A DNA stretch of 64,000 nt from Methylomonas aurea (GTDB lineage: Bacteria > Pseudomonadota > Gammaproteobacteria > Methylococcales > Methylomonadaceae), in the NCBI RefSeq assembly GCF_024505045.1, contig NZ_JANIBM010000003.1, positions 124,001 to 188,000 on the forward strand, given 5' to 3'. The notes below the pieces were generated by a model. The model saw only the letters and a program-made list of their open reading frames with translations. It was not told the DNA's origin and did no database searches. Position numbers and translations under genes: made by a program. Below, in pieces: positions 962 through 20,530 of the stretch. Each line of letters opens with the position of its first letter. Within the stretch, counting starts at the first letter, position 1.

Positions 962-1960
962 ATGCTACGCGACAAAACCATACTGATTACCGGAGGTACC
1001 GGTTCCTTCGGCCACACCTTCGTGCCGTTGACCTTGGCCAAATACAATCCGCGCCGCCTGGTGATTTTCTCCCGCGACGAGATGAAGCAGTGGGAAATGG
1101 CGAAGTTGTACGGCGACGACCCGCGCGTCCGCTTTTTTATCGGCGACGTGCGCGATAAAGACCGTCTGGCCCGCGCGTTGAACGGTATCGAATACGTCGT
1201 ACACGCCGCGGCGACCAAAATCGTGCCGACTGCGGAATACAACCCGTTCGAATGCGTCAAGACCAATATCATCGGCGCGATGAACCTGATCGACGCCTGT
1301 ATCGACCAGGGTGTGAAGCGCGTAGTGGCGTTGTCTACCGATAAAGCCAGCAGCCCTGCCAATCTGTACGGAGCGACCAAACTGGCTTCCGATAAATTGT
1401 TCGTCGCCGGCAATTCGTATTCCGGCAAAAACGAAACCCGGTTTGCCGTAGTGCGTTACGGCAATGTGATGGGCTCGCGCGGTTCGGTGATTCCGTTTTT
1501 CCAATCCATCGCCCATAAAGGCGTGTTACCGATCACCGATGCCCGGATGACGCGCTTCATGATCACGTTGGAGCAAGGCGTGGATTTGGTCTGGCGCGCC
1601 TTCGACGACATGGTCGGCGGCGAAATTTACGTCAAGAAAATCCCGTCGATGAATATCGTCGATATCGCCCGTGCGGTGGCTCCCGATGCGCAGCACGAAA
1701 TCGTCGGCATTCGCCCCGGCGAAAAATTGCACGAACAGATGATAGGGCTGGAAGACGCGCCTTATACCTACGAGTACGACGACTACTACAAAATTCTGCC
1801 GGCGATTCACAACTGGAGTTCCGATCCCGAGCGCATCAACCAGGGGGTGCGGGTTGCGCCGGATTTTGTCTATTGTTCGGATAACAACACGGAATGGATG
1901 AGCGTGGCCGAGTTACAGGCCTGGCTGGAACAGAACCGCGATAAAGTCGGCAAAATATGA
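962..1960 (+). CDS. pseB: UDP-GlcNAc 4,6-dehydratase (inverting), PseB
   Basis: This 332-residue SDR-fold enzyme has the NAD(P)-binding GGTGSFG motif near residue 11 and the catalytic STDKA...NLYGATK block near 125-140, which carries the Asp-Lys and Tyr-x3-Lys residues typical of PseB/FlaA1. PseB converts UDP-GlcNAc to UDP-2-acetamido-2,6-dideoxy-L-arabino-hexos-4-ulose, the first committed step of pseudaminic acid synthesis. It overlaps pseC by the sequence ATGA, and pseG and pseI follow further on. That context favours PseB over the retaining legionaminic-type dehydratase. Confidence 0.93.
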   Translation: MLRDKTILITGGTGSFGHTFVPLTLAKYNPRRLVIFSRDEMKQWEMAKLYGDDPRVRFFIGDVRDKDRLARALNGIEYVVHAAATKIVPTAEYNPFECVKTNIIGAMNLIDACIDQGVKRVVALSTDKASSPANLYGATKLASDKLFVAGNSYSGKNETRFAVVRYGNVMGSRGSVIPFFQSIAHKGVLPITDARMTRFMITLEQGVDLVWRAFDDMVGGEIYVKKIPSMNIVDIARAVAPDAQHEIVGIRPGEKLHEQMIGLEDAPYTYEYDDYYKILPAIHNWSSDPERINQGVRVAPDFVYCSDNNTEWMSVAELQAWLEQNRDKVGKI

Positions 1961-3123
1961 CCGCATTCATTCCTTACGGCCGCCAGGATATCAGCGAAAC
2001 CGACATCCAGGCGGTCATCAATGTCTTAAAGTCCGATTTCCTGACGCAAGGGCCGGCAGTCCCGGCTTTCGAAACCGCAGTTTCGGAATATTGCGGCGTG
2101 CGCCATGCCTTTGCCGTCAACAGTGCGACCTCGGCGCTGCATATCGCTTGCCTGGCGTTGGGCGTCGGGCCCGGCGACTTGGTCTGGACCAGCCCGATTA
2201 CCTTCGTCGCCAGCGCCAATTGCGCGTTGTACTGCGGTGCCAAGGTCGATTTCGTCGATATCGATCCGCGTACTTACAACCTCAGCGTCGCCGCATTGGA
2301 AGAGAAACTGCAAGCAGCCGAACGGGACGGGAAACTACCCAAGGTGGTGATTCCGGTGCATCTGTGCGGGCAATCCTGCGAGATGGCGGCGATCCATGCC
2401 TTAAGCGAAAAATACGGCTTCAAAATCATCGAAGACGCCTCGCACGCGATCGGCGGAAAATACCGGAACCAGCCGATCGGCAATTGCCGCTATTCCGATA
2501 TCACCGTATTCAGTTTCCATCCGGTCAAAATCATCACGACCGCCGAGGGCGGTATGGCGCTGACCAACGATACCGAATTGGCTGATAAGCTGGCCCTGCT
2601 GCGCAGCCACGGCATTACCCGCGATCCGGCGCAAATGACGCACCAGGCCGACGGCCCTTGGTATTACCAACAGATTGCGCTCGGTTACAACTACCGCATG
2701 ACGGATATCCAGGCCGCTCTGGGTTTGAGCCAGCTATCGCGGTTGGACGAATTCGTGGCAAACCGGCAGCGCCTGGCAGCGCGTTACGACAGTTTGTTGT
2801 CGGCGTTACCGGTTGAGATTCCTTGGCAGCACCCGGACAATTATTCCGCGTTGCATTTGTACCCGATCAGAATTCCGGAAGGTGTCTCTTCTTACAGCAG
2901 ACTGAGTGTGTTCGAAGGCCTGCGCGCAGCCGGTATCGGCGTCAACGTGCATTACATTCCGGTGCACTTGCAGCCGTATTACCGACAGCTGGGTTTCCAG
3001 CCCGGAGACTTTCCGGAAGCTGAACGTTATTACCGTGCCGCGATCAGTCTGCCGCTCTATGCGACCTTGACCGAAGCTAACCAAGACCGCGTTGTCGCAG
3101 CGTTGCGCGGACAATTGCAATGA
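1957..3123 (+). CDS. pseC: UDP-4-amino-4,6-dideoxy-N-acetyl-beta-L-altrosamine transaminase, PseC
   Basis: This 388-residue DegT/DnrJ/EryC1-family aminotransferase has an N-terminal YGRQDISETDIQAV stretch and an IIEDASHAIGG motif near residue 160. The PLP lysine is in FSFHPVKIITTAEGGM near 185, and the family substrate-binding GYNYRMTDIQAALG is near 245. PseC transfers an amino group from glutamate to C4 of the PseB product. The gene overlaps both neighbours by ATGA, so the three are almost certainly translationally coupled. Confidence 0.93.
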   Translation: MTAFIPYGRQDISETDIQAVINVLKSDFLTQGPAVPAFETAVSEYCGVRHAFAVNSATSALHIACLALGVGPGDLVWTSPITFVASANCALYCGAKVDFVDIDPRTYNLSVAALEEKLQAAERDGKLPKVVIPVHLCGQSCEMAAIHALSEKYGFKIIEDASHAIGGKYRNQPIGNCRYSDITVFSFHPVKIITTAEGGMALTNDTELADKLALLRSHGITRDPAQMTHQADGPWYYQQIALGYNYRMTDIQAALGLSQLSRLDEFVANRQRLAARYDSLLSALPVEIPWQHPDNYSALHLYPIRIPEGVSSYSRLSVFEGLRAAGIGVNVHYIPVHLQPYYRQLGFQPGDFPEAERYYRAAISLPLYATLTEANQDRVVAALRGQLQ

Positions 3124-4013
3124 AGATCGGTTTGGGTACCGTGCAATTCGGCGTCGATTACGGCGTTTCGAATAAAGATGGCAAAACGCCAGCCGTCGAA
3201 GTCGCCGCTATTCTGGCGGCGGCCGGTGAGCTGAAGGTTCGAGTGCTGGATACGGCGAGCCTTTACGGTGATAGCGAACAGGTGTTGGGCAATTGTTTGC
3301 CGGCCGCTGCCGGGTTCGATATCGTGACCAAAACCCCGCAATTTGCCAAACCGGTTTTGGATGCCGATGATGCCGAACGATTGCAACAAGTCTTCCACGA
3401 GTCGTTAACAAAGCTGAACTGCGATTCGGTATACGGCTTATTGATTCATCGGGCGGACGATCTGTTCGTGCCCGGCGGCGAACGATTAATGGCTGCCTTA
3501 ACCCGTTTGCAGCAGCAAGGCTTGGTTGCCAAGATCGGGGTTTCGGTGTACGACTCGGCGCAGATAGACCAAATTCTGCAGCGGTTTGATATCGATTTGG
3601 TGCAACTTCCGATCAGTGTTTTGGATCAGCGCTTGCTGGTTAGCGGCCATTTGCAGAAACTAAAATCGGCCGGAGTCGAGGTGCATGCCCGCTCGGTATT
3701 TTTGCAGGGCCTGTTGCTGATGGATGTGTCGGAAATTCCGGCGTATTTCGCTCCGGTGCGGCATGTTCTCGAATCCTATCGCGCATTTATTCGCGCCCGC
3801 GGATTGGCACCGCTCCAAGCCGCAGTGGGATTCGTATCCGGCTTGACCGAAATCGATCAAATCATTTGCGGCGTGAACAATGCGCAGCAACTGCGCGATA
3901 TCTGCGACGCCGCCAACGTCGAGCTCGATTGCGGCGAGTTTGCCGGGTTCGCCATCGGCGAAGAAGCGATAGTCAATCCGGCTTTGTGGCGACTGGAACC
4001 AGGAAAATCATGA
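3120..4013 (+). CDS. Aldo/keto reductase in the nonulosonic acid operon
   Basis: The 297-residue protein has the AKR barrel start GLGTVQFG and all the members of the catalytic tetrad: Asp and Tyr in DTASLYGDSE near residue 40, Lys in VTKTP near 72, and His in LLIHRADD near 105. AKRs reduce aldehydes or ketones with NAD(P)H. The standard five-step pseudaminic pathway needs no such enzyme, so this is probably a modification step. It overlaps pseC and the next cytidylyltransferase by ATGA at both ends. The substrate is unknown. Confidence 0.8.
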   Translation: MKIGLGTVQFGVDYGVSNKDGKTPAVEVAAILAAAGELKVRVLDTASLYGDSEQVLGNCLPAAAGFDIVTKTPQFAKPVLDADDAERLQQVFHESLTKLNCDSVYGLLIHRADDLFVPGGERLMAALTRLQQQGLVAKIGVSVYDSAQIDQILQRFDIDLVQLPISVLDQRLLVSGHLQKLKSAGVEVHARSVFLQGLLLMDVSEIPAYFAPVRHVLESYRAFIRARGLAPLQAAVGFVSGLTEIDQIICGVNNAQQLRDICDAANVELDCGEFAGFAIGEEAIVNPALWRLEPGKS

Positions 4014-4783
4014 TATTAGCCATATTACAGGCTCGGGTGTCGTCGTCCCGCTTGCCCGGCAAGGTGTTGATGCCACTGTTGGGGGAGCCAATGTTGCTTA
4101 GGCAAATCGAGCGGCTGCAAAAAGTCAGTCACATCGACCAACTGGTGGTTGCTACCAGCAGCGAGACGGCGGACGATGCGATAGCAAGCTTGTGCGAGCA
4201 GCATGCAGTCGATTGCTTTCGCGGCAATCTGCACGACGTACTGGACCGGTTTTATCAAGCGGCAGAGAGTTACCACCCGGATCACGTGGTGAGGCTGACC
4301 GCGGATTGTCCGTTGGCCGATCCCGGTTTAATCGACCAAGTCATCGAATTTTATCTGGCCGGCGCTTACGACTATGCCAGTAACGCCATACAGCCGACCT
4401 TCCCGGACGGCTTGGATGTCGAAATCTGCCGCTTTGCCTGCCTGGAGCAGGCTTGGCGCGAGGCCGAGCTGCCGTCGCAACGCGAACACGTCATGCCGTT
4501 CATTCACCAGCAGCCGGAGCGCTTCAATATCGGCCATTTTCTCAATCGCGAAGACTTGTCGCATCTGCGCTGGACTGTCGACGAACCCCGAGATTTCGAG
4601 TTGGTCTCGCAGATTTATGCCGCTTTGTACCCGGCGAATCCGGATTTCTCGACGCCGGACATCTTGCGTTTATTGGCCGAGCGCCCGGAACTAGTCAACT
4701 GGAATACGCAGCATCAACGCAACGAGGGCTATCTTAAATCCCTTGCCGCCGAAGCGCCGCCATCGTCAAACCTCGCAAGTTAA
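4010..4783 (+). CDS. SpsF-type cytidylyltransferase, likely CMP-nonulosonate synthetase
   Basis: The ATG at 4010 overlaps the upstream stop (ATGA) and gives 257 residues that open with MILAILQARVSSSRLPGKVL, the nucleotidyltransferase loop of the SpsF/CMP-sugar synthetase family. DHVVRLTADCPL near residue 90 fits the metal and substrate site, and WTVDEPRDFELV near 195 is an SpsF hallmark. In this context it most likely activates pseudaminic acid with CTP, the PseF role. No canonical PseF is seen in the window. An upstream in-frame extension exists but lies inside the previous gene. Confidence 0.75.
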   Translation: MILAILQARVSSSRLPGKVLMPLLGEPMLLRQIERLQKVSHIDQLVVATSSETADDAIASLCEQHAVDCFRGNLHDVLDRFYQAAESYHPDHVVRLTADCPLADPGLIDQVIEFYLAGAYDYASNAIQPTFPDGLDVEICRFACLEQAWREAELPSQREHVMPFIHQQPERFNIGHFLNREDLSHLRWTVDEPRDFELVSQIYAALYPANPDFSTPDILRLLAERPELVNWNTQHQRNEGYLKSLAAEAPPSSNLAS

Positions 4784-4791
4784 TAGCCCTT

Positions 4792-6081
4792 ATGTCAGAA
4801 CGTTACCGCAACTCCGAAACGCTACTGGAACGCGCGCTGAAAACCGTTCCGCTCGGTTCTCAAACTTTCAGCAAGAGTAAAACCCAATACCCGTTCGGCG
4901 TGTCGCCGTATTTCATTCAGCGCGGGCGCGGCAGCCACGTTTGGGACGTCGACGGCAACGAGTACGTCGATTTCATCAACGGACTTTGTGCCGTCACCCT
5001 GGGCTACAACGATCCTGACGTCACTGAAGCCGTCAAGGCACAGTTGGAAGACGGCGTGATTTTCAGTTTGCCGCATCCGATCGAAATGCAGGTCGCGGAA
5101 AAAATCTGCGAATTGGTGCCTTGTGCGGAACAAGTCAGATTCGGCAAAAACGGTTCCGACGCCACGGCTGGCGCCATTCGCCTGGCGCGCGCCCATACCG
5201 GCCGCGACCATGTCGCGGTTTGCGGCTACCACGGCTGGCAGGATTGGTATATCGGTTCCACTTTGCGTAACCGCGGCGTGCCGCAAGCCACCCGCGATTT
5301 GACGCATACCTTCATGTATAACGACATCGCCTCGCTGGACATTGTGTTCAAGCAGTGGCCGGACCGGATCGCTGCGGTGATTCTGGAACCGATGAATGTG
5401 GTCGAGCCGCAGGACGGGTTTCTGCAGAATGTCAAAGAATTAACCCACAAACACGGTGCGGTGTTGGTTTTCGACGAAACCATCACCGGCTTTCGCTATG
5501 CCAACGGCGGCGCCCAGGAATATTTCGGGGTGACGCCGGATTTAGCGACCTTCGGCAAAGGCTTGGCCAACGGTTATCCGGTATCCGCCGTCGCCGGGCG
5601 GGCGGACTTGATGCAATTGATGGAAGAAGTGTTCTTCTCGTTTACCTTCGGCGGCGAAACCTTGTCGTTGGCGGCGGCATTGGCGACGATGCAGAAATTG
5701 CAGCGCGAACCGGTCGTGGCGACGATGCGCCGGCAAGGCGAAAAAATCATCCAGCGTCTGCATGCAGTGATAGCCGCAAACGGTGCAGAGCATTTCATCA
5801 GCGTCTCCGGCCATCCAGCCTGGAGCTTTTTGTTGATCAAGGATGCCGAGCCGTACACGTCCTGGCAATTGAAAACTCTGTTCATGCAAGAGATGCTGGA
5901 TCGAGGCATTCTGGCCTTCGGCTCCCACAACATGAGCTATAGCCATCACGACAGCGATCTGGATCAATTGTTTGCAGCCTACGATGAGGTGATTCCACTA
6001 TTGGTTGCGGCGGTCAAGGAGCGTTCGTTAGAGAAAATGCTGCGTTGCCAGGCGCTGGAACCGTTGTTCAAGGTCAGATGA
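4792..6081 (+). CDS. Class III aminotransferase, glutamate-1-semialdehyde aminomutase-like
   Basis: This 429-residue PLP enzyme has the class III layout: DVDGNEYVDFINGLCAVTLGY near residue 45, the cofactor-binding Asp in VFDETITGFR near 230, and the PLP lysine in TFGKGLANGYPVSAV near 260. It resembles HemL-like aminotransferases recruited into glycan clusters. In this operon it probably aminates a sugar or acyl-chain carbonyl, perhaps together with the aldo/keto reductase at 3120. It is not needed for ordinary pseudaminic acid. It overlaps the next gene by ATGA. Confidence 0.8.
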   Translation: MSERYRNSETLLERALKTVPLGSQTFSKSKTQYPFGVSPYFIQRGRGSHVWDVDGNEYVDFINGLCAVTLGYNDPDVTEAVKAQLEDGVIFSLPHPIEMQVAEKICELVPCAEQVRFGKNGSDATAGAIRLARAHTGRDHVAVCGYHGWQDWYIGSTLRNRGVPQATRDLTHTFMYNDIASLDIVFKQWPDRIAAVILEPMNVVEPQDGFLQNVKELTHKHGAVLVFDETITGFRYANGGAQEYFGVTPDLATFGKGLANGYPVSAVAGRADLMQLMEEVFFSFTFGGETLSLAAALATMQKLQREPVVATMRRQGEKIIQRLHAVIAANGAEHFISVSGHPAWSFLLIKDAEPYTSWQLKTLFMQEMLDRGILAFGSHNMSYSHHDSDLDQLFAAYDEVIPLLVAAVKERSLEKMLRCQALEPLFKVR

Positions 6082-7607
6082 GTTTGAAAGTCGCGATTCG
6101 CGCCGACGCCTCGGTGCAGATGGGCAGCGGCCATGTGATGCGTTGCCTGACTCTGGCCGATGCATTGCGCGAGCGCGGTGCCGAGGTGGCATTCATCAGC
6201 CGCGAACATCCGGGCAATCTGTTTTCGCTGATCGAGGCTTCCGGCCATCTGTTATTGCGGTTGCCGGAACCGACGTCCGCTCCCGATACCCGGCTTGCCC
6301 ATGCCGCGTGGTTAGGAACAACGCAAACCGAGGATGCCCAACAAACCGCTGCGGCTTTGCGGCAGTTTGGCGATCCCGATTGGCTGATCGTCGACCATTA
6401 CGCCATCGACGCGGAATGGCAGGCAATATTGCGGCCGATGGTCGGGCGCATCATGGTGATCGACGATTTGGCGGACCGGCGGCACGATTGCGACTTGTTG
6501 TTGGACCAAAATCTGCAAGACCAAATCGGGCAAACCCGTTACGACGGTTTGCTGCCGTCCACGGCAACCAAGCTGATTGGGTCCAAGTATGCGTTGCTGC
6601 GCCCGGAATTTAAAGCCCTGAGGGCGGCGGCGCGGATCAGGTCCGGTGCGGTCGAGCGCGTTCTGGTTTTCTTCGGCGGCGGCGACCCCAGCAACGAAAC
6701 CGCAAAAGTGTTGCTGGCGTTAAAGAGTCTGGCTCGCGACGAATTGGCCGTCGACGTCGTGGTCGGCGGCGCCAATCCGCATTACCCGCAATTGCTGGAA
6801 TTAGCCGAGCACTTGCCCGCGTGTACCCTATATCGCCAAGTCAGCAATATGGCGGAGTTGATGGCAAATGCCGATCTGTCGGTCGGAGCCGGCGGCGGCG
6901 CGATGTGGGAACGTAGTTGTCTGGGCTTGCCGACCATCGCCATCAGCGTGGCTGCCAACCAGCAGCCCGGATGCGAGGCCATGGCCAAGCAGGGCGCGAT
7001 CCTTTATCTGGGAGCAGCGGAACGGGTTTCATTAGAGCTGGTGGCAAGTGCGTTGCGGCTTGTTATATGTTCTCCGTGGTTAGTGTCGAATATGAGCGAT
7101 TCGGCTGTTTCGGTTGCCGACGGCTCGGGTACTGCCAGGGTTTGCAATCAACTTTTTCGCCGCCGGTTGCAAGTGCGGTTGGCCGACCAAAGCGATTGCG
7201 AACGGGTATTCGGTTGGCGTAACGACGAAAACACGCGAAAATTCTTCTTCAACAATGAAGCGATTGCTTGGGAACGTCATCGCGAGTGGTTTTTGGCCAA
7301 GTTGAATTGCGCCGATTGCGTGTTGTTGATCGGCCAGGAAGCGGACGAAGCCATCGGTGTTTTGCGTTACGATATCAGTCAGCAGGTTGCGACGGTTTCG
7401 ATTTATCTCGATCCGCAAAAGCACGGATTGGGATACGGTTCGGCTCTGTTGGCGGCAGGCGAACACTGGCTTAAACAATATCGCCCGCTGGTAACCGAAC
7501 TGAAAGCGGAAGTCGTTTGCGAAAATAGTGCATCGAAGTGGGCCTTCGTTAAGGCTGGATTTAAAGAATCGGTTTTAACTTTTAAGAAAGTTTTGGCTGG
7601 TGATTAG
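6078..7607 (+). CDS. pseG: PseG-PseH fusion: UDP-sugar hydrolase plus N-acetyltransferase
   Basis: The ATG at 6078 overlaps the preceding stop and gives 509 residues, far longer than a stand-alone PseG of about 275-340. Residues 1 to about 345 are PseG: RADASVQMGSGHVMRCL with the catalytic His, VFFGGGDPSNET near 195, and GAGGGAMWERSCLGLP near 275. Residues from about 350 form a GNAT domain (FGWRNDENTRKFFFN, then HGLGYGSALLAAGEHWL with acetyl-CoA-binding glycines), as in PseH. One polypeptide would therefore acetylate the 4-amino sugar and remove UDP, two consecutive steps before PseI. Confidence 0.85.
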   Translation: MSLKVAIRADASVQMGSGHVMRCLTLADALRERGAEVAFISREHPGNLFSLIEASGHLLLRLPEPTSAPDTRLAHAAWLGTTQTEDAQQTAAALRQFGDPDWLIVDHYAIDAEWQAILRPMVGRIMVIDDLADRRHDCDLLLDQNLQDQIGQTRYDGLLPSTATKLIGSKYALLRPEFKALRAAARIRSGAVERVLVFFGGGDPSNETAKVLLALKSLARDELAVDVVVGGANPHYPQLLELAEHLPACTLYRQVSNMAELMANADLSVGAGGGAMWERSCLGLPTIAISVAANQQPGCEAMAKQGAILYLGAAERVSLELVASALRLVICSPWLVSNMSDSAVSVADGSGTARVCNQLFRRRLQVRLADQSDCERVFGWRNDENTRKFFFNNEAIAWERHREWFLAKLNCADCVLLIGQEADEAIGVLRYDISQQVATVSIYLDPQKHGLGYGSALLAAGEHWLKQYRPLVTELKAEVVCENSASKWAFVKAGFKESVLTFKKVLAGD

Positions 7608-7692
7608 GTGTTAAAAAATTAGCGATTTTCGTTTGTTGGTTTTTAACGGTAATCGATTAACGATCAAAAAATAAGGTGGCGAATAAATTAAT
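7608..7692 (+). promoter_or_regulatory. AT-rich spacer with palindromes
   Basis: This is the only AT-rich break inside the otherwise tightly packed 962-11319 module. It contains an 8-base inverted repeat, GTTAAAAA (7610-7617) and TTTTTAAC (7640-7647), and a perfect palindrome TAATCGATTA (7650-7659). An AAGGTGG ribosome-binding-type sequence sits at 7673-7679 before the ATG at 7693. It may hold a promoter or operator, or be a scar where genes were joined. No terminator-like T run follows the hairpin. Confidence 0.4.
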
Positions 7693-8487
7693 ATGGCTGA
7701 ACAAGTTTACGACAATCAATTGATGGGGCGTGCCGTCTCGACGGCCAGTTTGGAAACGAGACTGGATATGAATAAAAAATTTCAGTCCACCGATTTCGAC
7801 TCGTGGTTGATGGCGCGGTTAAATCCGCAAGCCGGGGAAGATATTCTGGATGTCGGCTGCGGCACCGGTGCACAGTCGATCCCATTCCTGAAGAGCGTCG
7901 GGCCGGAAGGTAGCGTTTCGGCGCTGGATATTGCCGCCGATTCGGTAGCCGAATTGATCCGTAAATCCGGGAATAGCCCCTGTTTGTCGGCAGCCGTCTC
8001 CGATATGGGGAAACTGGCCGACGTTATCGATCAGCAATTTGCCGTCAAACAATACGATTTGGCCCAGTCCAGTTATGCGCTGTATTACTCGGCCGAGCGC
8101 ATAGCAGTGCTGGACACGATGCGCAAACACCTAAAACCCAACGGCCGCTTGGCGGTGTTTACGCCCAACGCACCGCACGGCATGGTCGAATTCGTACGCC
8201 AGTTTGCCGAAATACCGGGCGGAGTCGATGAATGTATGGAATTTGGGCCGCATGTTCTCGAGCCGTATTTTAGAAAGCATTTCTGGGACGTTACCGTTCA
8301 TTTCTTTCACAACGTGGTCAGAATTCCGACCGTCGCCGATTTCGCCAGTTTTTACCGATCGACGACGTATTACAACGCCTCAGTCGAACAACAGCTATCT
8401 GCGGTTGTAGAGAATAAAATCACCGAGAACGGGTTTTTCGAATACGAGAAGAACGGCTATCTGATTATCGGACAGTCGCAATTTTAA
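7693..8487 (+). CDS. Class I SAM-dependent methyltransferase
   Basis: The 264-residue protein has SAM motif I as ILDVGCGTGAQSIPF near residue 55, followed by an acidic post-I position in SALDIAADS and a motif resembling IV near SSYALYYS. These place it in the Rossmann-fold methyltransferases of the UbiE/Methyltransf_11 type. It lies between pseGH and a deacetylase, so a sugar or acyl-chain O- or N-methylation is likely. The substrate cannot be read from sequence. The following gene starts 2 bases after its stop. Confidence 0.8.
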   Translation: MAEQVYDNQLMGRAVSTASLETRLDMNKKFQSTDFDSWLMARLNPQAGEDILDVGCGTGAQSIPFLKSVGPEGSVSALDIAADSVAELIRKSGNSPCLSAAVSDMGKLADVIDQQFAVKQYDLAQSSYALYYSAERIAVLDTMRKHLKPNGRLAVFTPNAPHGMVEFVRQFAEIPGGVDECMEFGPHVLEPYFRKHFWDVTVHFFHNVVRIPTVADFASFYRSTTYYNASVEQQLSAVVENKITENGFFEYEKNGYLIIGQSQF

Positions 8488-8488
8488 G

Positions 8489-9196
8489 ATGGCGAAAACT
8501 GAGATCGTATCGGTCATCGCCGCCCACCCGGACGATGAAATTCTGGGCTGCGGCGGTACCATCGCCGGCCATATTGCCAAAGGCGACCAGGTTCATGTAC
8601 TGATTCTGGCGGAAGGCATTACCAGTCGGGACGGCATGGCCGATCGCGGCAAATGCCAGTCCGATTTATCCGAGCTGGCTAAAGCAGCCCATAACGCCAA
8701 CGATATTCTGGGCGTCACCTCATTGACCCTGAATAATCTGCCGGACAACAGGATGGATTCGCTGGATAGGCTCGATGTGGTCAAAATTGTCGAGGCCTTC
8801 GTGCAAGCGAATGCGTCTACGATCGTGTATACCCACCATGCCGGCGACGTGAATATCGACCACCGCCGTATTCATGAGGCCGTCGTGACTGCTTGCCGAC
8901 CGATTCCCGGGCAACGGGTGTCGACCTTGTTGTTCTTTGAAGTGGCGTCCAGCACCGAATGGCAGCCGCCGGTGTCGGCACCGGTGTTTGCGCCGAATTG
9001 GTTTGTCGATATTTCCGCCTATTTGCCATTGAAGCTCAAAGCCTTGAATGCCTATGCCAGCGAGATGCGGCCCTGGCCGCACGCCCGTTCCGTAACCGCG
9101 CTGGAACATCTGGCCCGCTGGCGGGGGGCAACGATAGGCGTTGCCGCGGCCGAGGCTTTCATATTGGGCCGATACATACACAAAGCTGATAGTTAA
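8489..9196 (+). CDS. PIG-L family N-deacetylase
   Basis: This 235-residue protein begins with VIAAHPDDEILGCGGT, the PIG-L/LmbE zinc-binding AHPDDE motif. A second motif, HHAGDVNIDHRRIHEAV near residue 115, supplies further zinc ligands. Family members remove N-acetyl groups from amino sugars such as GlcNAc-PI. Between a methyltransferase and pseI, it probably deacetylates an amino sugar so that a different acyl group can be added, perhaps by the FemAB-like protein at 10249. It starts 2 bases after the methyltransferase stop. Confidence 0.82.
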   Translation: MAKTEIVSVIAAHPDDEILGCGGTIAGHIAKGDQVHVLILAEGITSRDGMADRGKCQSDLSELAKAAHNANDILGVTSLTLNNLPDNRMDSLDRLDVVKIVEAFVQANASTIVYTHHAGDVNIDHRRIHEAVVTACRPIPGQRVSTLLFFEVASSTEWQPPVSAPVFAPNWFVDISAYLPLKLKALNAYASEMRPWPHARSVTALEHLARWRGATIGVAAAEAFILGRYIHKADS

Positions 9197-9201
9197 CGTA
9201 T

Positions 9202-10245
9202 ATGCAAATAGCAAACAGACCCATTGGAACAGGCCATCGGCCTTTCGTAATCGCCGAAATGTCCGGCAACCACAACCAGTCGCTGGAACGGGCGCTGGAA
9301 ATCGTCGACGCCGCCGCCCAGGCCGGCGCACACGCGCTGAAAATCCAAACTTATACCGCGGACACCATTACGTTGGACGTCGGCGAAGGCGAGTTTTTCA
9401 TTTCCGATCCGAGTTCGCTTTGGAAAGGTACCTCGCTGCATAAGCTGTATCAGCAAGCCTATACGCCGTGGGAATGGCATAAAGCCATTTTCGACCGTTG
9501 CCGCGAACTGGGGATGATCGGTTTTTCGACGCCGTTCGACGAGACAGCAGTCGATTTTCTGGAAGAGCTGAACGTACCTTGTTACAAGATCGCCTCGTTC
9601 GAAAACATCCATCTGCCGTTGATTCGGAAAGTGGCGGCAACCGGCAAACCGATGATTATCTCCACCGGTATGGCAACCGTGGCGGAATTGGACGATACGG
9701 TGCGGACGGCGCGCGAAGCCGGCTGCAACGACATCGTGCTGTTGAAATGTACCAGTTCCTATCCGGCCACGCCGGACAACACCAATATCCGCACCATTCC
9801 GCACCTGCGCGAACTGTTCGGCTGCGAAGTGGGCTTGTCCGACCACACCATGGGTACCGGCGTCGCGGTGGCCAGCGTCGCGTTGGGCGCCAGTGTCATC
9901 GAAAAACACTTTACGCTGTGTCGCGCCGACGGCGGCGTCGATAGCGCATTTTCGCTGGAGCCGGCGGAAATGGCGACATTAGTGGTCGAAACCGAGCGTG
10001 CCTGGCAGGCCTTGGGCGAAATCAGCTATGGCGTAACGGAAGCCGAAAAAAAATCGCTGCAATTTCGCCGCTCGATTTACATTGCCCGCGACGTCGCCGC
10101 CGGCGAAACCTTGACTGTCGAGAATCTGCGTTGCGTCAGGCCGGGATTGGGTTTGCCGCCCAAATACTACGAAACCTTGCTGGGGCGCAAGGTCAACCGC
10201 GACGTGAAAAAGGGTACACCGATGTCCTGGGATTTGCTCGGCTGA
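9202..10245 (+). CDS. pseI: Pseudaminic acid synthase, PseI
   Basis: The 347-residue NeuB-family protein has the TIM-barrel start FVIAEMSGNHNQSLERA, the KIASFE and MIISTGMA strands near residues 130-155, LSDHTMG near 212, and GGVDSAFSLEP near 245, which is typical of PseI. A C-terminal SAF/antifreeze-like domain starts near 285. The enzyme condenses the 2,4-diacetamido altrose with phosphoenolpyruvate to make pseudaminic acid. Its position after pseB, pseC and pseGH supports PseI over sialic or legionaminic acid synthase. Confidence 0.92.
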   Translation: MQIANRPIGTGHRPFVIAEMSGNHNQSLERALEIVDAAAQAGAHALKIQTYTADTITLDVGEGEFFISDPSSLWKGTSLHKLYQQAYTPWEWHKAIFDRCRELGMIGFSTPFDETAVDFLEELNVPCYKIASFENIHLPLIRKVAATGKPMIISTGMATVAELDDTVRTAREAGCNDIVLLKCTSSYPATPDNTNIRTIPHLRELFGCEVGLSDHTMGTGVAVASVALGASVIEKHFTLCRADGGVDSAFSLEPAEMATLVVETERAWQALGEISYGVTEAEKKSLQFRRSIYIARDVAAGETLTVENLRCVRPGLGLPPKYYETLLGRKVNRDVKKGTPMSWDLLG

Positions 10246-10248
10246 GTA

Positions 10249-11319
10249 ATGGCGGAAATCGAACAACCTTGGGCTAAGCGCTTACCTTTCGATCTCGATG
10301 AAGCTTTGGCGGCGGCGAATTTGAAGGCCCGGCCGTACTTGGAAGATCGCGATAGTTGGCATAACTCGGCAGATCGCGCCGAATATCTGCCGGTGGCGTA
10401 TAGCAGGGCCATGACCGACTACCAGTTGGCTTACTGGCGCGGCAGCGGGCAGCAGCTATTCGACCTGTCGCTAGTGCTTTACCAGGACAAGCATCCCTGC
10501 GGCATCTGGCCTCTGAGCCTTTGCTTCGTCGGTAACGCGCGCATCGGCAGCAACGGCGATGCGCTGTTGCCGCCGCTGTTCGTTGCCGGGCTGACGGCAA
10601 ACGTCAGAAAAAAGCTGTTGCAAAGTTGCCTGGATTTCGTCGCTACGCTGGCGCGCAAATTCGACATCGGCCAATGGCAGTCGCTGGCTGCATTCGAAAA
10701 TCGGCCCGGCGTCAGCGAATGGCAGCACTTGGCTTTGTGCCGCGGTGCGACCGCAACTTGTGGCTACGAATTGTTTATCGATTTGCATCCTTCCGTTGCC
10801 GAGATTAAATCCGGCTTTCGTAAGAGTTACCGGCCTTTGGTGTCGTTGGGCGCCAAACTCTGGCAGATCGCGGTTTTGGACGGTCGCGACGATCGGGTCT
10901 GGGACGAATTCAAGAATCTGCACCGCGAAGTCGCCGGCAAGGTTACGCGGAGCGACGACAGTTGGCGCTGGCAACACGAAGCCGTCGCGTCCGGCGATGC
11001 GTTTCTGGTGTATCTGCGCGACGGCGCGCAACGCATGGTCGGCGGCGGTTTTTTTCAAGTGAGCCGCGACGAGGGCGTATACGCCGTGGCTGCCTACGAT
11101 AGGGCGCTATTCGACAAACCCTTGGGGCATGCCGTGCAATACCGGGCCATAGAGGAAATGAAAAGCCGCGGAGTCCGTTGGTACAAAATCGGCGCCCGGC
11201 CCTATCCCGGCGATCAACCGCCGCCCAGCGAGAAGGAGCTGCGGATTGCCGAATTCAAACAGGGTTTCGCCTCGCATATTTTCCCGTGCTACCGCTTGAC
11301 CGCCAGCCTATGCCATTGA
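10249..11319 (+). CDS. FemAB/GNAT-like acyltransferase
   Basis: This 356-residue protein starts 3 bases after pseI. Its C-terminal half has the FemAB/BioF2-like acetyltransferase pattern: FRKSYRPLVSLG, then HREVAGKVTRSDDSW, and a final IAEFKQGFASH that resembles the FemAB 'FK.gfg' ending. Such proteins transfer acyl or aminoacyl groups to amino groups of sugars or peptidoglycan. Here it may add a non-acetyl acyl group to the nonulosonic acid precursor after PIG-L deacetylation. That pairing is inference. Confidence 0.65.
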   Translation: MAEIEQPWAKRLPFDLDEALAAANLKARPYLEDRDSWHNSADRAEYLPVAYSRAMTDYQLAYWRGSGQQLFDLSLVLYQDKHPCGIWPLSLCFVGNARIGSNGDALLPPLFVAGLTANVRKKLLQSCLDFVATLARKFDIGQWQSLAAFENRPGVSEWQHLALCRGATATCGYELFIDLHPSVAEIKSGFRKSYRPLVSLGAKLWQIAVLDGRDDRVWDEFKNLHREVAGKVTRSDDSWRWQHEAVASGDAFLVYLRDGAQRMVGGGFFQVSRDEGVYAVAAYDRALFDKPLGHAVQYRAIEEMKSRGVRWYKIGARPYPGDQPPPSEKELRIAEFKQGFASHIFPCYRLTASLCH

Positions 11320-11449
11320 TTTCTGGGTCCTGGAACCTGTCCTGCGAACAAACATCCGCCTATCGCTATGCCATGCACTCGATAACATCCAGCCCGTTCC
11401 GTGGAAAGTGCAGCGGTCGCAGTTTGCCGAGCCGGCAAGGAGCTTGTTG

Positions 11450-12352
11450 ATGGCAAATGTTTCCGTAGGCATTGTCTCTTATAACCGGCCGGAGTTGCTG
11501 AAGCGGGCCATCGAATCGGCGATCTCGCAAACCTATCGAGACCTGGAGATTATCGTTAGCGATAACGGCAGTACCGATCCGCGAGTCCGGCACATCATCG
11601 ATGAATTTGCGGCTAACGATCCGCGCATCAAATGCTTGTTCCATCCGGTCAACCAAGGGGCGTTTTTCAATTTCCGGGCGGCTTTGAATGCCGCCACCGG
11701 CCGGTACTTCATCTGGCTGGCCGACGACGATTATTGGTGCACGGAGTATTTGGAACATATAGTGGCCAAAGCTGAACAAAGCGGGGCGGCATTGATATAC
11801 GGCCGCTGCGAGATTATCGATGCCGAAACCGCTAGCGACGACCGCGTGGTCAAGGAAATGGCAACGGCTTCAAGCAGAGTGGCGGCGATGGCCAATTTCG
11901 TTCGTCTCGACACCGATGCCGTCTTCTATGGACTGTTTCCTACCGCATTGGGCCGGAGGTTGGCCGCGTTGTTACGCTTTTGGCGGATACCGCCGAAGCT
12001 GGCCGCGGATTGGCCGTTTCTTGAATATAATTTCGTCAGTTACGCCTTTATTTTCGGCCTGTTGAGTTCGGGCGGATATTGCAACGCCAGTAGCGAAAAT
12101 ACCGTGCATTTCGTCGGCGGCCGAGCGCCGTTTCCGCATTCGCCGAGTTTGGGTTGGCGCCATCTGTGGTTGTTACTGATGTATGTCTCGGTCCACTTGC
12201 AAATGGCGAACCGGTTTGCCCATGCCGCGTATTCCGCCGCCAGTTGGCCCGGCGTACTGTTCTCGCCGGTTGCGGTGGGTTATTTGTTTTGCCGCCGGCT
12301 CGGCATGATTTTGAGCCAAAGATTAAACACACTGAAAAAAGGTCTGAAATGA
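11450..12352 (+). CDS. Family 2 glycosyltransferase
   Basis: The ATG at 11450 is preceded by AAGGAG at 11438-11443 and gives 300 residues. The GT-A start VSVGIVSYNRPELLKRAIESA and the IIVSDNGSTD nucleotide site are near residues 5-45, and the metal-binding WLADDDYW is near 90. The C-terminal part has hydrophobic stretches near residues 185-205 and 265-290 that may associate with the membrane. It probably adds one sugar of the glycan. An earlier in-frame start at 11408 lacks a ribosome site. It overlaps the next gene by ATGA. Confidence 0.85.
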   Translation: MANVSVGIVSYNRPELLKRAIESAISQTYRDLEIIVSDNGSTDPRVRHIIDEFAANDPRIKCLFHPVNQGAFFNFRAALNAATGRYFIWLADDDYWCTEYLEHIVAKAEQSGAALIYGRCEIIDAETASDDRVVKEMATASSRVAAMANFVRLDTDAVFYGLFPTALGRRLAALLRFWRIPPKLAADWPFLEYNFVSYAFIFGLLSSGGYCNASSENTVHFVGGRAPFPHSPSLGWRHLWLLLMYVSVHLQMANRFAHAAYSAASWPGVLFSPVAVGYLFCRRLGMILSQRLNTLKKGLK

Positions 12353-13221
12353 GCGTAAAAACCAAAATCAAGGATTGGCTGTATACGAACTATCCGGGGT
12401 CGAAGCAAAAGGTGGAAAGCTTCTTTGCCGATGCGCCGCTACTAAGGAAACTGTTGCGCGTCGGCTTTACCCCGACTTTTCAAGGCTGGGGTATGTCGAC
12501 CTTTACCCATACGCCGTGGGGCAGCGCGACCGATCTGGGTGACATTGAGCTCGCTTTCAACGAAACCTGCGGCCAGCTAACCGAACTGGTTAAAAACGAC
12601 GGATTCAAACTGACCCAATTCAAGCCGGCCGAGCGGCTGAGCATGTTGAATTCGTTGATGTGGCGGCATTACATCGTCTTCTGGAGCGCCACTTTTGCCG
12701 CCAAATACGCACCGCGCGGGACACATAATTTCGTCGAATGCGGGGTTTGCGACGGCCTGACTTCTTTTTTTGCGTTGAATGCGGCTTCCCGTGGCGGCTC
12801 CGATTGGGGCGCTTACCTGTACGACGCTTGGGAGGCGATGCGCGGCGATTTGTTGCTGGAAAGCGAGAAGGGCAACCAAGGCGAATATGCGTATCTGAAC
12901 GTCGACGTCACCCGGGCCAATCTGGCCATGTTCGGCGATCGGGTGCGCTTCAACAAGGGCTACATTCCGGAATCGTTTGCCGGTTCGGAAAATCCCGAGG
13001 CGATTGTGTGGATGCATATCGACTTGAATTCGGCGACGCCGACCATCGCCGCACTCGACTTTTTCTGGCCGCGTATGGTTGCGGGCGGCGTCGTGTTGTT
13101 CGACGATTACGCCTGGCCCGGTTACGAAGATACCCGCAATCTGATTCTGCAGTGGTTGAAAGATAAGGACGGCACTCTGTTACCGTTGCCTACCGGGCAA
13201 GCGTTGATCTTTAAACGTTAG
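12349..13221 (+). CDS. TylF/MycF-like sugar O-methyltransferase
   Basis: The ATG at 12349 overlaps the upstream stop and gives 290 residues. NFVECGVCDGLTSFFAL near residue 125 matches SAM motif I of the TylF/MycF family, and WMHIDLNSATPT near 222 and VVLFDDYAWPGY near 245 supply the conserved Asp residues that bind metal in macrocin O-methyltransferases. These enzymes methylate hydroxyls of deoxysugars with Mg2+. In this locus a glycan sugar is the likely target. A spacer of 42 bases separates it from the ABC transporter. Confidence 0.75.
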   Translation: MSVKTKIKDWLYTNYPGSKQKVESFFADAPLLRKLLRVGFTPTFQGWGMSTFTHTPWGSATDLGDIELAFNETCGQLTELVKNDGFKLTQFKPAERLSMLNSLMWRHYIVFWSATFAAKYAPRGTHNFVECGVCDGLTSFFALNAASRGGSDWGAYLYDAWEAMRGDLLLESEKGNQGEYAYLNVDVTRANLAMFGDRVRFNKGYIPESFAGSENPEAIVWMHIDLNSATPTIAALDFFWPRMVAGGVVLFDDYAWPGYEDTRNLILQWLKDKDGTLLPLPTGQALIFKR

Positions 13222-13263
13222 TCGCGGAAGCGAGCCGATGGGCTGTCGTTTTAAGGAGCAAAA

Positions 13264-15045
13264 ATGCGCTTTTTGATGCTGGTTTTCAGAATCATTCCGG
13301 AAGATTGGCATCGGCGTTTTTTTGGCTTGGTCGCTTTATATCTGTTGTTGGGCGTGTTCGAGATGCTCGGCGTCGCGTCGATCATGCCTTTTGTCGCCTT
13401 GTTGTCCGATCCGTCGGCACTGGCCAAATCCTCGACCGGCCAGTTGTTCGCACTGGTCAGTCCCGTGCCGCTGGAGCAAATACCGGTACACGTGGTGGGC
13501 TTGGTCGTGTTGTTTTTGTTCGTGTTCGGCAACGTGCTCGGCTTGGCGTCGATGTGGTTGTCGATCCGGTTTTCGGCGCGGTTGGGCGTCAGATTGGCCG
13601 GCGAATTATCGCTGAGCTTTTTCGCCAGGGGCTTGCCGTTTTTGCGGTCGCAGAATCCGACGATTCATGCCAATTACGTGGTCAGAGAAATCGATCGGGC
13701 CGTGTCGGGCGGCATCCTGCAGTTGTGCCTGATTGTCAGTAAAACCTTTCAGGTTGCCTTGGTCGTTGTGCTGCTGGCTTTGGTTTCGCCGTTATTTTCC
13801 GCGGTTTTCGGGTTGGCGGCCATCGTCATGTACTCGTTGTTCTTTCGCGTATTGAGAAAGAAAATGGCCGGAGCCGGCGAGGCGATTTTGCACGCTACCG
13901 GAAATGCCACCCGTGCGGCTACCGATCTGTTCGCTTCGGCCAAGGAAGTGTTGGTACGCGGCAATCTGAATTACTTCGTCGGCGGCGTGTGCGGCTGGTT
14001 GGATGAATACCACCATGCCGATCAGGTTTCCAGGGTGTATCCGATGATCCCTAAATACCTGATAGAGTTGCTGGCGTTCTCAATGTTGTTGTCTTTGCCG
14101 ATTTACCGTTCCTGGAGCGGCGGCGAATACCGTTCGCTGGTACCGTTCATCGCCTTGTTCGCTTACGCCGGCTACCGCCTGCTGCCCAATTTGCAGCAGG
14201 TTTACGCCAGTCTGAGTATTCTGAAATTCAATGCCGCTGCGGTCGAATATCTCGGCCAATGTCTGGCGGAAGCCAGGGCGCGGACGGCGGGCGTCACCAG
14301 GATCGAGCGCTTTGACCGGAGCATGGTCTTCGAAAATGTGGCCTATACCTATCCGGGCAGCGATAGCCCGGCGCTTGCCGGTGTGTCGTTACAGATCGCT
14401 GCCGGCGAGAAAGTGGCGATCGTCGGCGTTTCCGGGAGCGGAAAAAGTACCTTGCTCGATTTGATCCTGGGTTTGGTGCCGGCTGCAAGCGGAACGATTG
14501 CGATCGACGGGATCGAGCTTGCCGATCAACGATTGTCATGGGCGACCGAATTGGTCGGCTACGCGCCGCAAGCGCCGCTGATCTTGGGTGCCTCGGTTGC
14601 CGAGAATATCGCGTTCGGCATTCCGGCCGACGCGATCGATCAACCGCGCTGCCGCGAGGTTGCCGATTTTGCATTGGCCGGCGACGTGGTCGGCAATTTG
14701 CCGCGCGGAATGGCTACTGTCCTCGGCAGTGGGGGCGTGGCGCTTTCCGGTGGCGAAGCCCAGCGCATATCGATCGCCCGTGCGTTGTACCACGACCCGC
14801 AAATCGTTGTGCTCGACGAGCCGTCCAGCGCCTTGGACCCGATATTGTCGGCCCGCTTGTTCGAAAAATTGTGCGCGATTGGCTTCCGGAAAACGGTGGT
14901 CGCGGTGACTCATAACTGGGACGTTCTGCCTGGGTTCGACAAAGTCGTCTTGATGGACGCCGGCCGCCTGGCCGCGATCGGCAGCTATGCCGAGGTGGCG
15001 CCGCTGGTCGAGGAACTGCGCAAGCGCGAGCCTGCCGAAGTTTGA
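13264..15045 (+). CDS. ABC transporter, fused permease and ATPase, PglK-like flippase
   Basis: The 593-residue half-transporter has a hydrophobic N-terminal domain with about six membrane segments (residues 15 to about 310). Its ATPase has Walker A GVSGSGKST near 390, signature LSGGEAQRISIARAL near 495 and Walker B IVVLDEPSSALD near 515. This is the layout of PglK/MsbA-type exporters, and PglK flips lipid-linked oligosaccharides across the inner membrane. It is the only exporter in the glycan locus as seen here. AAGGAG at 13254-13259 is the ribosome site. Confidence 0.85.
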   Translation: MRFLMLVFRIIPEDWHRRFFGLVALYLLLGVFEMLGVASIMPFVALLSDPSALAKSSTGQLFALVSPVPLEQIPVHVVGLVVLFLFVFGNVLGLASMWLSIRFSARLGVRLAGELSLSFFARGLPFLRSQNPTIHANYVVREIDRAVSGGILQLCLIVSKTFQVALVVVLLALVSPLFSAVFGLAAIVMYSLFFRVLRKKMAGAGEAILHATGNATRAATDLFASAKEVLVRGNLNYFVGGVCGWLDEYHHADQVSRVYPMIPKYLIELLAFSMLLSLPIYRSWSGGEYRSLVPFIALFAYAGYRLLPNLQQVYASLSILKFNAAAVEYLGQCLAEARARTAGVTRIERFDRSMVFENVAYTYPGSDSPALAGVSLQIAAGEKVAIVGVSGSGKSTLLDLILGLVPAASGTIAIDGIELADQRLSWATELVGYAPQAPLILGASVAENIAFGIPADAIDQPRCREVADFALAGDVVGNLPRGMATVLGSGGVALSGGEAQRISIARALYHDPQIVVLDEPSSALDPILSARLFEKLCAIGFRKTVVAVTHNWDVLPGFDKVVLMDAGRLAAIGSYAEVAPLVEELRKREPAEV

Positions 15046-15073
15046 CAGGCCTGGGAATCCACAAATTTCGCAG

Positions 15074-15102
15074 GTGAAAGCCGTCGGCCTATCGTGTATC
15101 AT
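15074..15102 (+). promoter_or_regulatory. Candidate sigma-70 promoter before rfbF
   Basis: In the 153-base gap between the ABC transporter and rfbF I see a -35 GTGAAA (15074-15079), a 17-base spacer and a -10 TATCAT (15097-15102, five of six consensus bases). It would give a leader of about 90 bases before the ATG at 15199. A T-rich stretch (TTTTTTCTTT at 15110-15119) follows but has no strong hairpin before it. This could be a second start of transcription for the CDP-sugar module. Confidence 0.45.
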
Positions 15103-15198
15103 CCACCGTTTTTTCTTTAGCTCGCTCGCGTTGAAAAATAAAATGGTGCGTCCGTTACAGCCCCGCCGATTGGCTGCCGACCTTTTTAAAGTTGATTC

Positions 15199-15978
15199 AT
15201 GAAAGCAGTCATTCTGGCCGGCGGGCTCGGTACCCGCATCAGCGAAGAAACCGTTTCCCGCCCCAAACCGATGATCGAAATCGGCGGCAAGCCGATTCTG
15301 TGGCACATCATGAAGATATACTCCGCGCACGGCATTAACGAGTTCATCGTGTGCTGCGGTTACAAGGGATATGTCATCAAGGAGTATTTCGCCAATTATT
15401 TTCTGCATATGTCGGACGTCACCTTCGACATGCAAAAAAACCAAATGGAAGTCCACCACCGCTACGCCGAACCTTGGCGGGTGACGCTGGTCGACACCGG
15501 CGACGACACCATGACCGGCGGCCGCTTGAAACGGGTCGCCGCCTATCTGCAAAACGAAACGGCATTTTGTTTCACCTACGGCGACGGCGTGGCCGATGTC
15601 GATATTTCCGCTGCGATTCGCTTTCACCAAGGCCACGGCAAGTTGGCCACCGTCACCGCCGTCCAGCCTGCCGGGCGCTACGGCGCCTTGGATTTGGCCG
15701 GAACCCGGGTCAAAGGCTTCATGGAAAAACCGAAAGGCGACGGTGGCTGGATCAACGGCGGTTTCTTCGTGTTATCTCCCGAGTGCGTGACGTACATCGA
15801 CGGCGATGCAACCCATTGGGAAGCCGAGCCATTGACCCGTTTGGCGCAGCAAAGCCAACTGATGGCGTTCGAACACGCCGGCTTTTGGCAGCCGATGGAT
15901 ACGCTACGCGACAAGAATCAGCTCGAGGAGTTGTGGCAATCCGGGGCCGCACCGTGGAAGGTTTGGCATGAATCCTGA
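15199..15978 (+). CDS. rfbF: Glucose-1-phosphate cytidylyltransferase
   Basis: The 259-residue protein has the nucleotidyltransferase loop [23 protein letters not shown] at its N-terminus (family motif GLGTRI...PKPM), [13 protein letters not shown] near residue 125 with the metal-binding Asp, and [18 protein letters not shown] near 175, all typical of RfbF. It makes CDP-glucose from CTP and glucose-1-phosphate. It overlaps rfbG by 11 bases. Length matches the family (about 257). Confidence 0.94.
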
Positions 15979-20504: not shown

Positions 20505-20530
20505 CTGCAGTTCGACCGCCGGCCTTGCCG

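Follow-up and report, generated by a model that had tools for sequence, protein, structure and literature searches.

A putative sugar-amination cassette in a pseudaminic acid operon of Methylomonas aurea

The canonical pathway to CMP-activated (cytidine monophosphate) pseudaminic acid (Pse), a sugar found on flagella, capsules and O-antigens, consists of PseB, PseC, PseH, PseG, PseI and PseF. Here we describe an operon at positions 962-11319 of a 64,000-nucleotide stretch of the Methylomonas aurea genome (contig NZ_JANIBM010000003.1, positions 124,001 to 188,000), and refer to the whole stretch as the window. The operon has PseB, PseC, PseG and PseI, and an SpsF-type cytidylyltransferase replaces PseF. 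Six of its genes fall outside the canonical set: an aldo/keto reductase (AKR), SpsF, a class III aminotransferase (AT3), a methyltransferase, a PIG-L type deacetylase and a FemAB-family transferase. We consider it fairly probable that the operon makes a CMP-activated Pse with an additional amine, preferably at C8.

The closest working analogy for such a product would be Kdo8N of Shewanella, an amino form of 3-deoxy-manno-octulosonic acid (Kdo). Here a dehydrogenase and a pyridoxal phosphate (PLP) dependent transaminase (KdnA/KdnB) reportedly aminate Kdo, with CMP activation following. The enzymes belong to other families than those of the window, and the sugar is also a different one, in which C8 is a primary alcohol. 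Published papers are cited below for what their available excerpts state. The Shewanella sugar is mentioned in PMC3210612. An 8-amino-3,5,7,8,9-pentadeoxynonulosonic acid, of the manno and tentatively L configuration and with the configuration at C8 open, is reported from the O-antigen of Flexibacter maritimus (PMC3210612; also PMC4052302). Apart from the open configuration at C8, this sugar is 8-amino-8-deoxy-pseudaminic acid.

AKR, SpsF and AT3 in the place of PseF

The cytidylyltransferase at 4010-4783, which we take to be of the SpsF type, is not a canonical PseF (TIGR03584 24.6 bits, cut-off 205.7). A similar domain has been named SpsF-like (PMC7371886). The gene company of this enzyme is most clearly seen in a sample of loci anchored on pseI and not chosen by AT3. 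PseI is above cut-off in 37 of 369 genomes (an even sample of the class), at 39 places. The 38 places outside the window were taken, and the nine without PseC were dropped, leaving 29 complete loci with PseC and PseI in the stretch. Homologues were called from phmmer best-domain scores against the window proteins (PseI 300, PseC 250, AT3 and PseB 150, FemAB 120, PIG-L 100, and AKR, SpsF and methyltransferase 60 bits), and canonical PseF from 100 bits against the sequences of loci L178, L181 and L183. All six AT3-positive loci have both SpsF and AKR, and none has canonical PseF; the 23 AT3-negative loci have PseF in 20 cases, SpsF in three and AKR in one (Fisher p = 1.5e-5 for AT3 with AKR and 1.8e-4 for AT3 versus PseF; 29 loci). 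The six AT3 genomes carry six different family labels, and family f184 contains one genome with the cassette (G661) and one with PseF instead (G756). AKR, SpsF and AT3 are one module, and they travel together in place of PseF. The PseF model itself is above cut-off in 19 of 44 genomes searched.

SpsF occurs without AT3 in three loci: L148 has an SpsF-AKR fusion and a short-chain dehydrogenase/reductase (SDR), in L172 there are glutamine-amidotransferase and HisF-like genes, and L167 has a methyltransferase. Since these loci carry other extra genes, SpsF may be associated with modified sugars in general; likewise, the AKR of L148 occurs without AT3, so that AKR alone does not imply amination. 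As a separate observation, the pse loci L172 (5306-7845; SpsF, no AT3) and L081 (11855-14472; AT3 present) both have glutamine-amidotransferase (HisH-like) and HisF-like genes, presumably as in amidination modules.

A second set of loci was anchored on AT3 itself, by a contig scan, and comprises the best 80 of at least 587 relatives. Sixty are complete, with at least 4 kb on each side, and the 20 in which one flank is shorter than 4 kb were left out. The order PseB-PseC-AKR-SpsF-AT3-PseG-PseI is repeated in seven loci, from Stenotrophobium (L046), Bacillus (L047), Undibacterium (L049), Paenibacillus (L051), Janthinobacterium (L053) and Aeromonas (L074 and L076), so the arrangement in the window is not due to chance. 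In Aeromonas L075 and L077 the PseG match is only 32-33 bits, and the PseC of L077 is split over two frames. A preliminary description of this DNA had suggested a search for genomes with the same string, of which these loci are examples, and a test of whether the extra genes always accompany pseI. For AT3 the answer is mixed: a PseI-like synthase is present in 34 of the 60 complete loci and absent from 26, but 11 of the 26 are split-transketolase clusters resembling those for ketodeoxynononic acid (KDN), where AT3 lies beside another NeuB-type synthase, and a NeuB-family synthase is present in 54 of the 60.

In the KDN-like cluster L125, from Ignavibacteria, a glycosyltransferase-like gene is followed by SpsF, a split transketolase (two genes), AT3, an SDR, a gene resembling KdsC/KDN-9-phosphate phosphatase, and NeuB; PseB and PseC are not found in the cluster (6315-13580). 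The 11 loci with both transketolase genes near AT3 come from Bacteroidota, Ignavibacteria, Chloroflexi and others. The use of AT3 therefore extends beyond Pse, and this favours a role on the ulosonic acid itself. Similar clusters without PseC are also seen in L103, L113, L115, L117, L119, L121, L122 and L124, from several phyla. It is possible, although we put it forward tentatively, that these clusters make a second aminated nonulosonic acid, and that an oxidoreductase (AKR, Gfo/Idh/MocA or SDR), AT3 and usually a dedicated SpsF, often fused, make up a mobile cassette that serves to aminate 3-deoxy-ulosonic acids in general (at C8 in Pse), in many bacterial phyla and perhaps an archaeon. In a contig binned as an Aenigmatarchaeota archaeon (L111:1228-10363), there are PseB, Gfo/Idh/MocA, AT3, PseC and PseI matches, and no SpsF match was called.

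Gene fusions are strong evidence that the fused enzymes share a substrate. With the criterion of an SpsF domain of at least 40 bits inside the AT3 frame, SpsF and AT3 form one open reading frame in 17 of the 80 AT3-anchored loci, and also in L132, L133, L135, L146, L158, L160 and L173. In L091, a single frame of 1028 residues contains Gfo/Idh/MocA, SpsF and AT3 domains. The fusion of SpsF to AKR in L148 has a counterpart in Vibrio B9-25K2 (PMC7371886).

The oxidoreductase of the module is exchangeable. Gfo/Idh/MocA (at least 50 bits) and SDR (at least 80 bits) were called from scores against proteins taken from the AT3-anchored loci. AKR was counted anywhere in the locus, and Gfo up to 3 kb from AT3, or up to 6 kb in the 26 loci without PseI. 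Twenty-four of the 34 loci with AT3 and PseI have AKR, eight have Gfo/Idh/MocA, none has both and two have neither; when AKR is missing, it is usually replaced by a Gfo/Idh/MocA oxidoreductase. Pfam assignments back the Gfo/Idh/MocA calls in seven of the eight loci, and also in L079 and L111. The other 26 complete loci have AKR (8), Gfo (4) or SDR (12, within 6 kb), and none of these was found in two (L110 and L118). In none of the 23 AT3-negative controls is there a Gfo gene up to 3 kb from the CMP-synthetase, and one (L148) has an SDR in that range. The use of several oxidoreductase families in one slot beside AT3 is as predicted for a conversion of alcohol to ketone to amine.

The cassette enzymes appear catalytically intact. 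AKR residues D44, Y49, K71 and H110, which we take by motif to be the D-Y-K-H catalytic tetrad, are conserved in 52 of 52 aligned sequences (window included), and the protein scores 170.6 bits with KidO (NF011432), under the cut-off of 244. K256 and D228 of AT3, by motif presumably the PLP lysine and the cofactor aspartate, are conserved in 99 of 99 (window included). The AT3 model has the fold of glutamate-1-semialdehyde aminomutase (GSAM), with a predicted local distance difference test score (pLDDT) of 90.9. Identity with the heme-pathway HemL was considered and rejected (hemL 268.7 bits, cut-off 527.3; PRK06209 445.8, cut-off 486). In alignments with solved GSAMs, the stretch that follows the YHG motif, which we take to be the gating loop, is shorter in AT3, and a lysine instead of an arginine lies opposite the arginine of 'PVR', presumably a substrate-binding residue. 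Other solved relatives of AT3 include C-6' aminotransferases, presumably aminoglycoside enzymes.

AT3 matches occur in 92 of the 369 genomes of the class (E 1e-60). The idea that matches of less than 40% identity are GSAM was dropped, as several are SpsF-AT3 fusions within pse loci, and so the frequency of AT3 cannot be read from identity alone. Plasmids contain AT3 matches in 42 records, with 30 among the matches listed, at 39-46% identity.

Proposed chemistry and its alternatives

In the proposed route, PseB, PseC, PseH, PseG and PseI would make the ordinary Pse skeleton. AKR would then convert one of the free hydroxyls of this nine-carbon acid, preferably that of C8 but possibly that of C4, into a ketone, AT3 would transaminate the ketone to an amine, and the SpsF-type enzyme, replacing PseF, would attach CMP to the aminated product. 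This would give as core 8-amino-8-deoxy-pseudaminic acid (5,7,8-triamino-3,5,7,8,9-pentadeoxynonulosonic acid), on which PIG-L, the methyltransferase and FemAB would alter the substituents, FemAB perhaps with an aminoacyl group. Apart from its anomeric hydroxyl, pyranose Pse has free hydroxyls at C4 and C8. The replacement of PseF and the fusion to a CMP-synthetase place the reaction beside CMP activation. We infer the enzyme activities, the reaction direction, the step order, the amine position and the targets of PIG-L, methyltransferase and FemAB from gene content, co-occurrence of the module, interchangeable oxidoreductases, fusions and intact catalytic residues, which are observed. That the cassette aminates an ulosonic acid at all is likely; for C8 as the site, the chances are slightly better than even. 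The preliminary description had proposed that the nonulosonic acid is modified, for example by an altered N-acyl group or an extra amine, and the fusions and co-occurrence make an extra amine, a changed N-acyl group or both the best reading.

The module might instead add its amine elsewhere, such as at the C4 position of the nonulosonic acid or, before PseI acts, at a hydroxyl of the hexose. No sequence evidence fixes the position, and AT3 occurs in KDN-like clusters without PseB or PseC, so its target need not be specific to Pse. We regard this as unlikely, as the replacement of PseF and the SpsF fusions suggest a step adjoining the activation with CMP, and as the oxygen that becomes O8 sits in the ring of the hexose precursor in its pyranose form. 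The natural product found in the literature is, in addition, an 8-amino sugar (PMC3210612). Alternatively, the skeleton could be that of ordinary Pse, with AKR and AT3 making an N-acyl substituent (an amino or hydroxy acid) for FemAB; this would fit the resemblance of the FemAB model to aminoacyl transferases and the many solved AT3 relatives that act on amino acids. It is quite unlikely, however, because FemAB (at least 120 bits) accompanies the module in only two of the 34 AT3 and PseI loci, AT3 is in frame with the CMP-synthetase in the 17 fusions, and L161 has FemAB with canonical PseF and no AT3.

Two further explanations seem improbable. One is that AKR serves a C8 epimerisation, by oxidation and re-reduction, and that AT3 has a separate role. 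L148, with its SpsF-AKR fusion, SDR and no AT3, could be viewed in this way, and the Acinetobacter short-chain dehydrogenases AciB/AciE have been proposed to set the C8 epimer (PMC5595891). Against this, AKR and Gfo never occur together in the 34 loci, as expected if each feeds AT3, and AKR and PseB are the only oxidoreductases that family-model searches found in the window operon. The other, which we hold just as improbable, is that the product is ordinary CMP-Pse5Ac7Ac and that the extra genes serve other sugars of the same polysaccharide, given that a large cluster for polysaccharide, with GT2, an ABC transporter and CDP-hexose-type genes, follows in the window. The same string is nevertheless found in unrelated genomes, in Aeromonas it adjoins polar flagellum genes (PMC7874193), and the fusions and the replacement of PseF also speak against this explanation.

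Several observations weigh against amination by a cassette of this composition. L148 has AKR with an SDR and no AT3, and a repeat of the pseI-anchored sample in a second class (48 genomes, 10 pseI loci above cut-off) contained one complete locus, so that the replicate failed. The two loci with neither AKR nor Gfo are L062 and L088. SpsF is not universal in AT3 and PseI loci: the CMP-synthetase of the 34 is SpsF in 31, PseF-like in two (L081 and L105) and neither in one (L088), and AT3 also lies beside a PseF-like gene in L050 and L052. L136 and L137 have an AT3 homologue without any other module gene in the stretch, and a NeuB-family gene was not found in six of the 60 complete AT3 loci. The AT3-anchored loci are related by descent and transfer, and their counts are of non-independent events. 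No assay of any module enzyme came up in the excerpts of the open-licence literature, and the link of the cassette to the 8-amino sugar of Tenacibaculum (Flexibacter) maritimum is unproven.

A mass-spectrometric hint in favour of an extra amine comes from Aeromonas. By the nitrogen rule, an even ion mass goes with an odd number of nitrogens, and Pse5Ac7Ac has two. The flagellin sugar of A. hydrophila AH-1 has an oxonium ion of m/z 404.4 and fragments of 373.2, 355.4 and 342.4, described by the authors as one unit off Pse5Ac7Ac9Ac (PMC4691044). The even nominal mass of m/z 404.4 implies an odd nitrogen count for this sugar by that rule; the authors' top-ranked formula contains no nitrogen (PMC4691044). 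Single-sugar Aeromonas strains belong to groups I and III; within group I, those of A. hydrophila fall into subgroups IA and IB, which carry the reductase and the class III aminotransferase, and another two strains of this species belong to group IIIC (PMC7874193). The presence of AKR and AT3 in AH-1 is deduced from group membership, not seen, and the spectrum is a hint only.

If the amination reading is correct, the cassette would be a concrete gene assignment for the chemically known 8-amino relative of Pse, and would explain why PseF is missing from some pse loci. The SpsF-AT3 signature is easily searched and would predict carriers of aminated nonulosonic acids, and the enzymes could be used for making aminated sialic-acid analogues.

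Tailoring genes and layout of the operon

The genes of the operon (Table 1) all lie on the + strand and overlap or nearly adjoin, with only one gap of more than about 10 bp (85 bp, 5' of the methyltransferase gene). PseB, PseC, PseG and PseI all exceed their NCBIfam cut-offs as members of the canonical CMP-Pse pathway, and the PseH half of the pseG-pseH fusion scores 44.5 bits with TIGR03585 (cut-off 93.1). Family models and coordinates agree with the preliminary description on a tight operon of pseB, pseC, pseG-H and pseI with AKR, the class III aminotransferase, PIG-L and FemAB; its list had omitted the SpsF-type cytidylyltransferase and the methyltransferase. It had also held it probable that its four extra enzymes act on the same molecule as the core genes, and this is supported for AKR and AT3, which fusions and co-occurrence tie to the pse genes. 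The four as one set with a single function is rejected, as PIG-L, FemAB and the methyltransferase vary independently of AT3.

Table 1. Genes of the operon in the window, with assigned or proposed roles.
Gene	Product or role	Position	Strand	Evidence
pseB	UDP-GlcNAc (UDP-N-acetylglucosamine) 5-inverting 4,6-dehydratase	962..1960	+	TIGR03589 528 bits (cut-off 408)
pseC	UDP-4-amino-4,6-dideoxy-AltNAc (N-acetylaltrosamine) transaminase	1957..3123	+	TIGR03588 583 bits (cut-off 424); 4-bp overlap with pseB
AKR	aldo/keto reductase, proposed dehydrogenase of a nonulosonic-acid hydroxyl	3120..4013	+	PF00248
SpsF	SpsF-type cytidylyltransferase, proposed CMP-synthetase for the modified sugar	4010..4783	+	PF02348
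AT3	class III PLP aminotransferase, proposed to form the new amine	4792..6081	+	PF00202
pseG-pseH	fusion, UDP-sugar hydrolase and N-acetyltransferase domain (~7188-7565)	6078..7607	+	TIGR03590 306 bits (cut-off 154)
methyltransferase	S-adenosylmethionine-dependent methyltransferase, optional tailoring gene	7693..8487	+	PF08242, PF13847, related models
PIG-L	PIG-L type de-N-acetylase, optional tailoring gene	8489..9196	+	PF02585
pseI	pseudaminic acid synthase	9202..10245	+	TIGR03586 508 bits (cut-off 340)
FemAB	FemAB-family transferase, proposed aminoacyl/acyl transfer to a sugar amine	10249..11319	+	TIGR04421 305 bits (cut-off 250)

The 34 AT3 and PseI loci contain PIG-L in eight cases, FemAB in two and a methyltransferase of the window type in none. 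In the pseI-anchored sample, PIG-L and FemAB are unlinked to AT3 (2/23 and 1/23 of the AT3-negative loci, 0/6 of the positive; p = 1). Canonical PseF lies beside FemAB in L161 and beside PIG-L in L163 and L164, so neither gene requires AT3. FemAB is present in three of 36 other genomes searched within the genus. Among loci of the genus, L126 and L127 carry the cassette together with FemAB and show no PIG-L or methyltransferase match, and L128 has both PIG-L and the methyltransferase. In L126 pseI directly follows pseGH; in L127 (7176-10363; G432), pseG and pseI are separated by roughly 3 kb of different sequence, at the place where the window has the methyltransferase and PIG-L.

The PIG-L protein has its Pfam domain together with the metal-site residues: H13, D15, D16, E17, D120, D124 and H125 are conserved in 17 of 17 sequences (window included) and H117 in 14 of 17. 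The FemAB protein is above the cut-off of the FemAB_IMCC1989 family, and its model (pLDDT 85.9, from five sequences) has as nearest folds the aminoacyl-tRNA-dependent peptide synthases Sbb17/Sba18 and FemX; two of the Sbb17/Sba18 structure entries contain streptothrisamine. A sequence search of the PDB with FemAB gave nothing better than E 0.11. From the fold of the model, FemAB perhaps transfers an aminoacyl group to a sugar amine; tandem GNATs are next among the fold matches, and an acyl-CoA donor is therefore also possible.

Downstream of the operon (11408-22770) is a polysaccharide cluster with GT2, a TylF-like methyltransferase, an ABC transporter, a C-methyltransferase, UDP-GlcNAc 2-epimerase, and nucleotidyltransferase and dehydratase genes of the CDP-hexose type. 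Elsewhere in the genome, the PseF model finds nothing above cut-off, the best score being 123 bits on contig C15. This contig has a second nonulosonic-acid cluster (L141, G000:C15:38001-57000) in which a PseF-like gene and a PseC-like aminotransferase accompany a NeuB gene of lower similarity. A separate contig (L245, G000:C24, ~43031-43525) has one MptE-like (PF01973) gene in a frame of 838 residues. We take the Maf-type flagellin glycosyltransferases to belong to this family, which makes flagellin a possible acceptor besides polysaccharide. ARAGORN calls a 97-nt tRNA-Ala at 5556-5652 of the window, within the AT3 coding sequence, which is probably spurious.

Comparison with described systems

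The preliminary description presented the operon as its best candidate for an undescribed pathway, which is right in part. The arrangement itself is in print for Aeromonas, and the SpsF-AKR fusion for Vibrio, and the excerpts of these papers give no function for it (PMC7874193, PMC7371886). In group I of the Aeromonas polar flagellin glycosylation islands, the AKR/AT3 arrangement is drawn as in the window; islands ID and IE have the part from pseB to the aminotransferase in common, and ID has a methyltransferase and IE a deacetylase (PMC7874193). The window differs from the group I description in having SpsF in the place of pseF, and the excerpts name no FemAB and no function for the AKR and AT3 genes (PMC7874193). 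The Aeromonas islands adjoin polar flagellum genes, whereas the window operon sits in a polysaccharide cluster (PMC7874193). The pse cluster of Vibrio B9-25K2 lacks a NeuA homologue, for which an SpsF-like cytidylyltransferase domain, in fusion with an aldo-keto reductase, is proposed to substitute; unlike in the window, a dehydrogenase comes next and the excerpts mention no class III aminotransferase (PMC7371886). Its authors suggest a diacetylated Pse, possibly further modified (PMC7371886).

The sfmABCDE genes of Shewanella oneidensis were considered as the same system and rejected, as they encode a PseI-like protein, a thiamine pyrophosphate enzyme, a 3-oxoacyl-ACP (acyl carrier protein) reductase, a methyltransferase and an ATP-grasp protein (PMC3765264). 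The open-licence literature searched, as far as its excerpts go, names no genes for an 8-amino nonulosonic acid. The sugar of F. maritimus is known from chemistry, and it is of the kind predicted for the cassette, with different N-acyl groups (PMC3210612).

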